DNA of 64,000 bases from Gemmatimonadota bacterium. Lineage in GTDB: Bacteria; Gemmatimonadota; Gemmatimonadetes; Gemmatimonadales; Gemmatimonadaceae. The notes below the pieces were generated by a model. That model was not told the origin of the DNA. It worked only from the letters and a program-made list of their open reading frames with translations, and searched no databases. The position numbers were made by a program, and so were the translations under genes. The stretch's first letter is position 1, and each line of letters begins with the position of its first letter. The stretch covers positions 118,406 to 182,405 of the forward strand of contig PLCA01000016.1 in the NCBI GenBank assembly GCA_003134685.1. The letters are read 5' to 3'. Below are positions 25,489-48,890 of the stretch, one piece after another.

Positions 25489-25562
25489 TGCGCGCGGCGG
25501 GACTCGAACCCACGACCTTCGGCTCCGGAGGCCGACGCTCTATCCAACTGAGCTACGCGCGC
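25489..25562 (-). tRNA. tRNA-Arg(CCG)
   Basis: A 74-nt cloverleaf on the minus strand: acceptor GCGCGCG/CGCGCGC, D arm GCTC-AGTTGGATA-GAGC, anticodon arm TCGGC-CTCCGGA-GCCGA with anticodon CCG, T arm GTGGG-TTCGAGT-CCCGC, discriminator A. No CCA is encoded. It decodes CGG. Confidence 0.96.
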
Positions 25563-25598: not shown

Positions 25599-27041
25599 AT
25601 GACACTTGCAAAACGAAAGATAACCGTCCTGCCAGGCGATGGAATCGGCCCGGAGGTCGTTGAATCAGCCCTCGAGATCATAAAGGCTACCGGTACCTCC
25701 GTCGAGTTCGAGAAATGTGAGGCGGGCGCGCGCGCATTCCAGAAGGGAGTCGTCACCGGAATCCCCAAGGAAACGATCGAGTCGATCGAGCGCACCCGCG
25801 TTGTGCTCAAGGGCCCCCTCGAGACCCCAATCGGCTATGGCAGCAGAAGCGCCAACGTCACCCTTCGCACCCTGTTCGAGACGTATGGCAACATCCGCCC
25901 GGTTCGCGAGCTGCCCGGGGTTCAAACGGCCTTCACCGGACGCAAGCTCGATATCGTGATCGTCCGCGAGAACATCGAGGATCTCTACGCCGGCATCGAG
26001 TACATGCAGACGCCGGGCGTGGCCGAGAGCCTCAAGTTGATCTCGCGCGAAGGCTGCGAGAAGATCGTCAAGCTCGCGTTCGCGTTCGCGATCGCCGAGG
26101 GACGCAAGCGCGTCCACTGCGCGACCAAGGCGAACATCATGAAGCTCACCGAAGGACTGCTCCAGCACACGTTCGAGGAGTTCGCTCCGAGGTATCCCGC
26201 CATCGAATCCAGGCACATCCTGATCGACAATTGCGCTCACCAGCTCGCCATGCGTCCAGAGCAGTTCGATGTCATCGTCACGACGAACATGAACGGCGAC
26301 ATTCTGAGCGATCTCACCTCAGGCCTCACCGGCGGGCTCGGCTTCGCACCCTCGGCGAACCTCGGCAACGACGTCTCCATCTACGAGGCAGTACACGGCT
26401 CCGCGCCTGATATCGCCGGAAAGAACAAGGCAAACCCGACCGCGCTCATCCTGAGCGCGGCGATGATGCTGCGCCAGATCGGCGAAGGCAAAGCGGCGAA
26501 CGATGTCGAGCAGGCAGTTCTCGTGACGCTGGAGAGTGGAATGCGCACCAGCGACATGATGGGCGCGGACAAGCCGGCGACGACGACGGAATTCACGCAG
26601 GCCGTGATCGCCAACCTCGGGAAGCGCTCGAAAGTCAGCCAGCCCAAGGAATACAAGAAGGTCGAGCTGCCCCCGCCGCAGCTCGGAGTCAACGTGGTCC
26701 CCGCAAAGAGCCGGCGCCTGACAGGGCTCGACATTTATATCGAGTCGGATCTCGATCCCGCAAAATTGGCGGAAGATCTGGAGAAGCTGACCCCGAGCTC
26801 GCCATTCAAGCTGCAAATGATCACGAATCGCGGCGCGATGGTCTTTCCGGCGAGCGGCCGCCGCGTATCGCTCGTCGATCACTTCCGGTGCAGGTTCGTG
26901 CTCAGAGAGACACGAGCGAATTTTGGAGACTCCGAGATTCTCTCGCTGCTCGGTACCGTCGGCGCACAGCACCGGTGGATGCACATCGAGAAGCTACAGG
27001 AATTCGACGGCGAGCCCGCATTCTCCAGGTCGCAGGTCTAG
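25599..27041 (+). CDS. icd: Isocitrate dehydrogenase with C-terminal extension
   Basis: 480 aa beta-decarboxylating dehydrogenase converting isocitrate to 2-oxoglutarate in the TCA cycle. It opens KITVLPGDGIGPEVVESALE; the substrate-binding RPVRELPGVQT and IVRENIEDLYAGIEY, TKANIMKLTEGL, and the metal-binding DILSDLTSGLTGGLGFAPSA and YEAVHGSAPDIAGKNKANPT segments are all present. About 145 residues beyond the catalytic domain form an extra C-terminal domain (GLDIYIESDLDPAKLAEDLE), as in the longer IDH type known from Thermus and Rickettsia. Whether it uses NAD or NADP I cannot tell from the sequence; the coenzyme is NADP in several relatives. The tRNA lies 36 bases upstream. Confidence 0.94.
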   Translation: MTLAKRKITVLPGDGIGPEVVESALEIIKATGTSVEFEKCEAGARAFQKGVVTGIPKETIESIERTRVVLKGPLETPIGYGSRSANVTLRTLFETYGNIRPVRELPGVQTAFTGRKLDIVIVRENIEDLYAGIEYMQTPGVAESLKLISREGCEKIVKLAFAFAIAEGRKRVHCATKANIMKLTEGLLQHTFEEFAPRYPAIESRHILIDNCAHQLAMRPEQFDVIVTTNMNGDILSDLTSGLTGGLGFAPSANLGNDVSIYEAVHGSAPDIAGKNKANPTALILSAAMMLRQIGEGKAANDVEQAVLVTLESGMRTSDMMGADKPATTTEFTQAVIANLGKRSKVSQPKEYKKVELPPPQLGVNVVPAKSRRLTGLDIYIESDLDPAKLAEDLEKLTPSSPFKLQMITNRGAMVFPASGRRVSLVDHFRCRFVLRETRANFGDSEILSLLGTVGAQHRWMHIEKLQEFDGEPAFSRSQV

Positions 27042-27070: not shown

Positions 27071-27270
27071 GAAATGCAACTGAACGGGCGGGAGGCGTCA
27101 GTAGTAGGGGCACCAGTTTGTTAGTTCACTACGCCGGGACTTATCTCGGTAGAGTCACGACACAAGCAACTGCTTGTGCCCAGAATGCCACAGAGGCAAG
27201 TCCCGGCGTCGTGAACCAAACAACTGGCAGCTTACCTACTGGGGCCTCCCGCCCGTTCAGTTGCATTCTC
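27071..27270. repeat. 200-bp imperfect palindrome (MITE-like element or structured RNA)
   Basis: The outer arms 27073-27096 and 27244-27267 are perfectly complementary over 24 bp; a second perfect 12-bp arm (27131-27142 / 27198-27209) lies inside, and the 34-base stretches between them pair at 21 positions without gaps. The 55-base apical region contains a further hairpin (CACAAGCA/TGCTTGTG, 27161-27178). The whole spacer between icd and the amidase thus folds into one rod about 70 bp long. I see no terminal duplication and no second copy in the window. It may be a miniature inverted-repeat element, or a leader RNA of the amidase gene, whose start follows 33 bases later. Confidence 0.7.
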
Positions 27271-27302: not shown

Positions 27303-29066
27303 ATGGAAAAAGTCGATCGCCGTCACTTCATGGGCTACTTCGCGGGTGTCGGGCTCGGCTCGACGCTATTTCCGGGCGTGTTGTGGGCGAAGATCGCCGC
27401 CGGGGCGGACATCACCGTCGATACGATTGCCAGCGCGGAGGAAGTAGCGGGGATCCATTTCGATGCAGCCGAGCGCGAGCTGATGCTCGATGGCCTCAAG
27501 CAGCAGGAGCAGCGAATCGAGGCTCTGCACAAGGTCGCCCTTCCAAATTCGGTGAGCCCCGCCATCGTGTTCGATCCGTTGCCGCCGGGAAAGAAGATTT
27601 TGCCCGAAGCGCGCCGGCCGATGGTCAGAAGCAAGGTCGCCCACCGCGCCGTACCGGCTGACCTCGACGAGCTCGCGTTTCTCCCGGTGACAGAATTGTC
27701 GGAGCTGGTGCGTCGCAAGCGCGTCACATCCGTTCAGCTGACGCAGATGTACCTCGCGCGGCTGAAGAAATACGACCCGGTTCTCAAGTGTGTGATCACC
27801 CTTACGGATGACCGTGCGCTCAGGCAGGCCCATGCCGCCGACGCCGAGATTGCGCGCGGCAACTATCGCGGGCCGCTGCACGGGATTCCGTGGGGCGCGA
27901 AAGATCTTCTCGCCGTCCGCGGTTACAAGACGACATGGGGCGCCGGCCCGTTCAAGGAGCAGGTTATTGACGCCGACGCCACAGTCGTGCAGCGGCTCGA
28001 CGCAGCCGGCGCCGTGCTCGTCGCGAAGCTGACACTGGGCGAGCTCGCGCAGGGTGACATCTGGTTTGGTGCCACCACGAAAAATCCGTGGAAGGTGGAC
28101 CAGGGGTCGAGCGGATCGTCCGCCGGCCCCGCGTCAGCGACGGCCGCGGGCCTCGTCGGTTTCGCGATTGGAAGCGAGACGCTCGGATCGATCTCCTCGC
28201 CCGCGACGCGCTGCGGGACCACCGGGCTCCGGCCAACGTTCGGCCGGGTGCCGCGCACCGGCGCGATGGCCCTCTCGTGGACGATGGACAAGCTCGGTCC
28301 GCTCTGCCGGAGCGTTGAAGACTGCGCGATCGTGCTCGATGCCATCTACGGACCAGACGGTCAGGACAACAGCGTCATTGCGGCGGGATATCACTGGGAT
28401 GCACAGCTCTCGCCGAAGCAGCTCCGCGTCGGATACGTGAAGTCCGCGTTCGACACGCCGCTGACGGACCCGAGCGACGCCAAGCGGACGATGCACGCCA
28501 CAAAACAGTTCGACGACGCGGCGCTCGATGTGTTCAAGCGGCTGGGGATCAACCTTATTCCGGTCGATCTGCCCGATGTCCCTTACGACGCGATGCGCAT
28601 CATTCTGACTGCGGAAGCCGCCGCGGCGTTCGACGATCTCACGAGATCGAGTCGCGACAATGAGCTCGTACAGCAGGGGAAGTTCGATTGGCCGAACACC
28701 TTCCGGACGTCGCGCTTCATTCCCGCCGTCGATTATGTAAACGCCAATCGTCTGCGGTCGATCGCTATCCAGAAATGGGACGACCTCATGCGCACCGTCG
28801 ACGTGATCGTTACGCCTACCGGTGCTGCGAATCTCTCCCAGCTGGTCGCGACGAATCTCACCGGACATCCAGCCGTGATCCTTCCGAACGGATTCCGCGA
28901 CGATGGCACTCCCGTCTCACTGACTTTCCTGGGCGGACTGTTCGAGGAATCGAAGTTGCTGGCGGTGGCGCGGGCGTATCAGGAGGCGACCGGATTCCAT
29001 CTGAAGCATCCGGTCGTTCCGCTGACTCCGCCCGCCCCGCCTGCTGCACCTCCACCGGCGGCCTGA
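27303..29066 (+). CDS. Exported amidase-signature-family hydrolase
   Basis: 587 aa. A twin-arginine-like leader (VDRRHFMGYFAGVGLGSTLF) suggests export in a folded state. After a 120-residue pre-domain comes the amidase-signature core: Lys200 in LHGIPWGAKDLLAV, Ser272 in DQGSSGSSAGPASA and Ser296 in SETLGSISSPATRCG form the Lys-cisSer-Ser triad; GLRPTFGRVPRTGAM follows. The C-terminus ends in a Pro/Ala tail. The substrate could be an amide, a peptide or a small ester. Start ATG 27303 is preceded by AAGGATCC. The acetyltransferase follows immediately (GTG directly after its stop). Confidence 0.9.
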   Translation: MEKVDRRHFMGYFAGVGLGSTLFPGVLWAKIAAGADITVDTIASAEEVAGIHFDAAERELMLDGLKQQEQRIEALHKVALPNSVSPAIVFDPLPPGKKILPEARRPMVRSKVAHRAVPADLDELAFLPVTELSELVRRKRVTSVQLTQMYLARLKKYDPVLKCVITLTDDRALRQAHAADAEIARGNYRGPLHGIPWGAKDLLAVRGYKTTWGAGPFKEQVIDADATVVQRLDAAGAVLVAKLTLGELAQGDIWFGATTKNPWKVDQGSSGSSAGPASATAAGLVGFAIGSETLGSISSPATRCGTTGLRPTFGRVPRTGAMALSWTMDKLGPLCRSVEDCAIVLDAIYGPDGQDNSVIAAGYHWDAQLSPKQLRVGYVKSAFDTPLTDPSDAKRTMHATKQFDDAALDVFKRLGINLIPVDLPDVPYDAMRIILTAEAAAAFDDLTRSSRDNELVQQGKFDWPNTFRTSRFIPAVDYVNANRLRSIAIQKWDDLMRTVDVIVTPTGAANLSQLVATNLTGHPAVILPNGFRDDGTPVSLTFLGGLFEESKLLAVARAYQEATGFHLKHPVVPLTPPAPPAAPPPAA

Positions 29067-48816: not shown

Positions 48817-48890
48817 TCGGGGCGACTGGATTTGAACCAGCGACCTCCTGCTCCCGAAGCAGGCGCGCTACCGGGCTACGCTACGCCCCG
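48817..48890 (-). tRNA. tRNA-Pro(CGG)
   Basis: 74 nt on the minus strand: acceptor CGGGGCG/CGCCCCG, anticodon arm CCTGC-TTCGGGA-GCAGG with anticodon CGG, T arm with TTCAAAT loop, discriminator A; no encoded CCA. It decodes CCG. Its own terminator follows. Confidence 0.95.

Follow-up and report, generated by a model that had tools for sequence, protein, structure and literature searches.

The IVP gene is the one known from inserts (intervening sequences, IVSs) in bacterial 23S rRNA; IVSs that carry no ORF are known as well. A 23S rRNA IVS such as that of Coxiella burnetii is a stem-loop with inverted terminal repeats and an IVP/S23p ORF in the loop, and the accessible part of PMC4990558 describes tandem heptamers before the Coxiella ORF and cutting of such IVSs by RNase III. 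IVSs were discovered more than 25 years ago, yet both what they do and where they come from are still called unclear there, the hypotheses of origin on offer being a transposition remnant or a mobile element (PMC4990558, accessible part). The stem-loop with an IVP ORF is found in the coding relatives of the element described below, but not in the ORF-less copy that started this work. Unlike the 23S rRNA IVSs, these elements are intergenic, the present copy lying between icd and an amidase gene, and a single genome has many of them, along with scattered derivatives that lack the ORF. A match to LSU rRNA was found in none of the 60 IVP loci tested, and the IVP loci are therefore free-standing elements.

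Other described systems share some of these features. Like bacterial MITEs, the family is short, multicopy, dispersed and ORF-less, with conserved terminal inverted repeats; unlike them, it is palindromic almost throughout, and the coding copies that share its arms encode a four-helix bundle protein for which no enzymatic activity is known. As in REP/REPIN-RAYT systems, palindromes scattered between genes go together with a gene that has the same palindromes on either side, although REP/REPIN units measure 20-40 bp and the present ones about 195 bp. The REP/RAYT reading was rejected because no Y1 transposase (RAYT) was found in the genome concerned (98% complete); 3 of the 19 genus genomes have one. 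The Avd protein of diversity-generating retroelements belongs to the same broad protein superfamily as IVP, according to the accessible part of PMC10053308. A DGR/Avd partner was likewise rejected for this genome, which has no reverse transcriptase (3 of 19 in the genus do).

The palindrome (Table 1) lies in the window, by which we mean the whole stretch of 64,000 nucleotides that was analysed. It is real: it spans 27073-27267, about 195 bp, has arms of 78 nt that are 79% complementary around a spacer of 39 nt, and is by far the longest inverted repeat found within a 300 bp span in a scan of the 64-kb window. As RNA it folds at -134.3 kcal/mol, compared with a shuffle mean of -71.95 (z = -12.8; none of 200 shuffles as good), and Rfam gave no match for it. 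A sequence-only reading had described perfect outer and inner arms of 24 and 12 bp and a long stem with a small apical hairpin, all of which hold. It had also let the palindrome fill the entire intergenic space, which is too much, as it takes about 195 of the 261 bp, roughly three quarters, when the gap is counted to the ATG that most likely starts the amidase gene (preferred over the mechanical TTG at 27174). Two tRNA genes lie on the minus strand of the window, one just upstream of icd (25489-25562) and one at 48817-48890.

Table 1. Features of the icd-amidase region, in window positions.
Feature	Position	Strand	Partner	Remarks
icd, isocitrate dehydrogenase, upstream gene	25599..27041	+		PF00180 and PF18324
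Left arm	27073..27150	+		Terminal motif AATGCAACTGAAC; family consensus AACTGCAACTGAAC
Outer perfect 24-bp arm	27073..27096	+	27244-27267	Read directly from the sequence
Inner perfect 12-bp arm	27131..27142	+	27198-27209	Read directly from the sequence
Apex	27151..27189	+		Carries the small hairpin CACAAGC-AACT-GCTTGTG, 27161-27178
Right arm	27190..27267	+		Terminal motif GTTCAGTTGCATT; family consensus GTTCAGTTGCAGTT
Amidase, downstream gene	27303..29066	+		PF01425

The genome of the window (G000, Gemmatimonadaceae, 3.63 Mb, 98.4% complete) contains many such palindromes. A query of 220 bp around the palindrome gave 89 BLAST matches, a figure that counts both strands since the query is palindromic; sorting left 28 copies that are nearly complete (184-201 bp), besides coding copies and partial ones. 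The consensus termini are AACTGCAACTGAACGGGCGGGAGGC...GCCTCCCGCCCGTTCAGTTGCAGTT, and all 28 copies fold into a long hairpin. Among 61 genomes, the family is present in 9 of the 19 from the genus (own genome included) and in none of the 42 outside it. An apex motif, ACAAGCAACTGC, is common to 17 of the 28 ORF-less copies at no more than 3 mismatches, against 2 of 28 in a reversed control; judging from these sequences, most ORF-less copies thus look to have arisen by multiplication of the ORF-less form and not by separate deletions.

Occupancy of a given intergenic site differs between species. At the icd site, read by eye in the 19 genus genomes, a full palindrome is present in three (G000, G009 and G008), right-arm remnants in four, scraps in one and nothing in three, while seven have a different downstream gene and one ends at a contig edge. 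For nine other copies, the joined flanks were searched in four relatives (46 matches), and the 19 comparisons read by eye comprised three sites with the same family, six with a different-arm hairpin with related termini, six with remnants and four with no hairpin. These comparisons in relatives yielded no clean pre-insertion site with defined ends. Two further palindromes were noted in the same genome, L038:1035-1355 and L039:1006-1202; the former shares the termini AACTGCAAACTGAACGGG, differs in its inner arms (GGATCCGAGATCTG) and has a terminal 32-nt unit doubled on both sides. Nested or extended arms were seen in the flanks of L008, L012 and L015 and at the L007 site in G016 and G002 (L250, L252), where host flank or the ends of an older element prolong the inverted repeat outward, as if arms could grow by copying the opposite flank.

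A version of the palindrome with an IVP gene in its loop exists in the same genome. In L027:783-1390, arms of 78 nt, 88% complementary and 452 nt apart, enclose an ORF that matches PF05635 at E 1.1e-30 and TIGR02436 at E 4.7e-29, the closest solved structure being 2GSC (XCC0516, E 1.3e-11); L105 is a second coding copy. When seven coding loci were aligned to the ORF-less consensus, five matched it on both sides (L082, L105, L113, L096 and L094; two from G000, two from G017 and one from G005), and in all five the right-hand match begins 34-39 nt past the IVP domain; of the other two, L093 runs into a contig end and the match of L126 is weak. The ORF-less form is therefore the coding form minus the ORF core, its apex standing in place of some 450 nt of IVP ORF core in the coding copies. 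PF05635 is matched in 17 of the 19 genus genomes, with eight matches in G000. One genome, G002 (93% complete), has palindromes and no IVP/PF05635 match, so copies persist without IVP; they are either fossils, or the contig with the IVP gene is missing. A decaying coding copy was also observed, L106 (G000:C5:601122-601465), in which the IVP gene is frame-shifted and the hairpin, with arms of 100 nt, is still well formed.

The arrangement is common to IVP genes well beyond this genome. From 59 IVP loci found by tblastn in the genus, 54 had enough flank, and 46 of them reached an inverted-repeat score of at least 50, compared with 0 of 1000 random window positions and 1 of 169 shifted positions. 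The IVP gene was found in 105 of 200 genomes of the phylum, where 16 of a set of 28 loci scored at least 50, as did 37 of 80 named loci from Cyanobacteria, Bacteroidota, Acidobacteriota, Planctomycetota, Chloroflexota, candidate phyla and one archaeon, a biased and non-random set defined by one peptide pattern and the best 80 matches to one query. Long 'arms' of low identity (for example, L161, L151 and L146) resemble coding sequence, and L149 is an artefact; low-identity arms are dropped by a stricter cut that demands an identity of at least 0.75 as well as the score of at least 50. This cut was passed by 38 of 54 genus loci, 10 of 28 phylum loci and 27 of the 80 best matches from all phyla, against none of 189, 106 and 299 shifted positions, respectively. 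A further set, 14 of whose 30 loci overlap the 80-locus set, had 29 scored loci, of which 8 reached a score of at least 50 and 6 passed the strict cut, versus 2 and 1 of 116 controls. A flanking repeat scoring at least 50 is missing at 8 of the 54 genus loci and at 43 of the 80 best matches from all phyla; outside the genus, IVP loci without a clear repeat are many.

Single genomes have up to 15 PF05635 matches. A plasmid search at near-identity with one IVP locus found nothing, whereas a search at the protein level gave 34 records. The argument that an open frame spanning the element would prove its intergenic location was dropped, since the element may carry its own stops. Gene orientation was not used either: upstream and downstream genes are mostly co-directional in the set from all phyla (48:12 and 56:6) but not in the genus (21:18 and 11:29), and these counts depend on taking the longest ORF, a weak rule where DNA is GC-rich. 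On a Gracilibacteria contig, a match to 6S RNA lies beside an IVP element (L225:1177-1335).

Taken together, we consider that the palindrome is probably a non-autonomous, MITE-like, ORF-less derivative of free-standing hairpin elements that encode IVP. What the family is has good support; how it spreads, and that IVP drives the movement, we infer. IVP is under purifying selection, its divergence at codon positions 1, 2 and 3 being 0.28, 0.20 and 0.58 over 226 pairs. Identity of IVP is correlated with similarity of the arms (Mantel r = 0.46, reached in 0 of 2000 permutations), also within genomes (rho = 0.40, p = 9e-4, 66 pairs). At the level of sequence comparison, arm families thus track IVP lineages, a link that could be partly due to orthologous copies sharing both. 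In the proposed mechanism, IVP would recognise the palindrome of its own element in the form of a DNA hairpin and, aided by replication or repair enzymes of the host, bring about its copying into new, mostly intergenic sites. The ORF-less copies would be moved in trans, and each copy would afterwards drift, often being cut to one arm by deletion. If transcribed, the stem would give double-stranded RNA that RNase III could cut, as it does in 23S rRNA IVSs; at the icd-amidase site, though, such RNA would be incidental and would not explain why the structure exists.

The earlier suggestion that the palindrome may be a MITE is right in so far as it is a dispersed, multicopy, ORF-less palindrome whose arms recur in a coding version. 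A MITE in the classical sense, that is, an insertion sequence with an internal deletion, mobilised in trans by a transposase (DDE or another type) encoded elsewhere, with IVP as a passenger, seems rather unlikely. Such an origin would agree with a short palindrome that has conserved termini and an ORF-less form, and the search of the genome for transposases covered one family, Y1. However, flanking duplications do not exceed chance in the 28 copies (mean longest flank repeat 3.43 versus 3.34; 159 of 500 shuffles as high), the coding partner is not a transposase, and IVP is the sole gene seen between the arms and co-varies with the arm family.

The sequence-only reading also saw in the palindrome a transcript-level regulator or a source of double-stranded RNA, and took its G-U compatible mismatches to favour an RNA role. 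A hairpin in an icd-amidase transcript that controls stability, termination or RNase III cutting would suit the very stable fold, the position between two genes on the same strand and the cutting of 23S rRNA IVSs by RNase III; still, we regard it as quite improbable. RNA helices tolerate G-U pairs but not A-C, and the two kinds of mismatch are equally frequent, at 85:87 in the 28 ORF-less copies, with no strand bias, and at 149:158, 62:58 and 72:78 in the coding sets; a positive control on 13 tRNAs (5:2, with 17 cells 'other') has too few cases to carry weight. Since such parity is expected for any decaying copy, what it excludes is RNA selection on the copies now resident; it has no bearing on active sources. 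In 83 consensus-complementary pairs, changes are one-sided in 402 cells versus two-sided in 35. The paired cells of these 83 pairs number 1792 against a shuffle mean of 1775 (25 of 500 shuffles as high), a slight excess that comes mostly from three pairs where a copy group differs on both sides, and over all 98 arm pairs the shuffles gave no excess. The arms therefore drift without compensation after insertion, the very outcome that the sequence-only reading had named as speaking against it, and an RNA role of the window copy is unsupported. With the missing Rfam match and the uneven occupancy of the icd site adding to this, the RNA-regulator reading of the window copy was rejected. The pattern fits a structure made as a palindrome that has drifted since, as expected of palindromic source elements and their decaying dead copies.

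It is very improbable that the arms are kept alike by quasi-palindrome correction (template switching) and the family spread by recombination between shared termini instead of by IVP: mismatches are indeed strand-symmetric, different-arm hairpins share outer termini across species at several sites (6 of 19, by eye) and outer arms sometimes extend into host flank (the L007 site), but drift after insertion is mostly one-sided, so correction is weak, and it is left unexplained why a single protein family should go with these hairpins across phyla.

Outside the genus, the arms of IVP elements are often inverted arrays of 7-nt units. Seven was the best period in 12 of 19 arms from the phylum and 18 of 48 from all phyla, with none in either set of control stretches; among 49 genus arms it was best in three (and period 14 in four more), against one control stretch with period 7. 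Arms of the heptamer type also occur on named plasmids of Trichormus, Nostoc, Anabaena and Gemmatirosa kalamazoonensis (NZ_CP007129). The hit on the Gemmatirosa plasmid coincides in position with an IVP match in G033, a genome assigned to the family of the window's genome, in keeping with a host from the Gemmatimonadaceae. The heptamer repeats described for Xanthomonas, Nostoc and Beggiatoa resemble IVP arms in being intergenic 7-nt tandem arrays, and those of Xanthomonas also in often forming convergent inverted pairs, according to the accessible parts of PMC4692102 and PMC4679880. In two Xanthomonas genomes, arrays of the heptamer GGGAATC form 70 and 75 convergent inverted pairs (PMC4692102, accessible part), and it is possible that these are arms of IVP elements or of ORF-less derivatives. 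The terms four-helix bundle and S23 are absent from the accessible parts of both papers, and the link between heptamer arrays and IVP is a proposal made here.

IVP genes have been reported in cas loci (PMC3936711, accessible part). In Picosynechococcus, where the flanking repeat is weak (score 36), an IVP gene has cas10 on one side and a cmr3 gene on the other; in Anabaena sp. 90 its neighbours are cas6 and cas4. Heptamer-type inverted flanks were noted at the cas-operon loci L281 (NZ_CP016476.1, 1483-1839, cas10/cmr3) and L284 (NC_019429.1, 1483-1851, cas6/cas4). IVP as a 'cas-associated gene' may be merely the insertion of an element.

The window palindrome is ordinary as a decayed repeat copy, yet it leads to an unusual family of intergenic IVS-like hairpins with ORF-less offspring. 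These results suggest that the 23S rRNA inserts are only what shows of a family of mobile elements that is far larger and has mostly been overlooked. It is possible, and we propose it tentatively, that IVP genes define a widespread unrecognised class of bacterial mobile element in which IVP sits between inverted arms, often 7-nt arrays. Such an element would move as a DNA hairpin with neither transposase nor reverse transcriptase, spawn ORF-less palindromes, settle mainly between genes or within operons, those of cas included, and be seen as a 23S rRNA IVS only after landing in an rRNA loop. In the accessible text of the literature outside subscription journals and preprints, no paper was found that ties IVP genes to scattered palindromes or to inverted arrays of heptamers. 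Should the free-standing IVP hairpins be the population from which IVSs derive, the function and origin of the latter become testable, and genomes with up to 15 PF05635 matches, together with the dozens of ORF-less copies described here, provide the material. If true, this would account for the 'four helix bundle' genes found as orphans in cas operons, and it might also explain the inverted heptamer arrays of several phyla.
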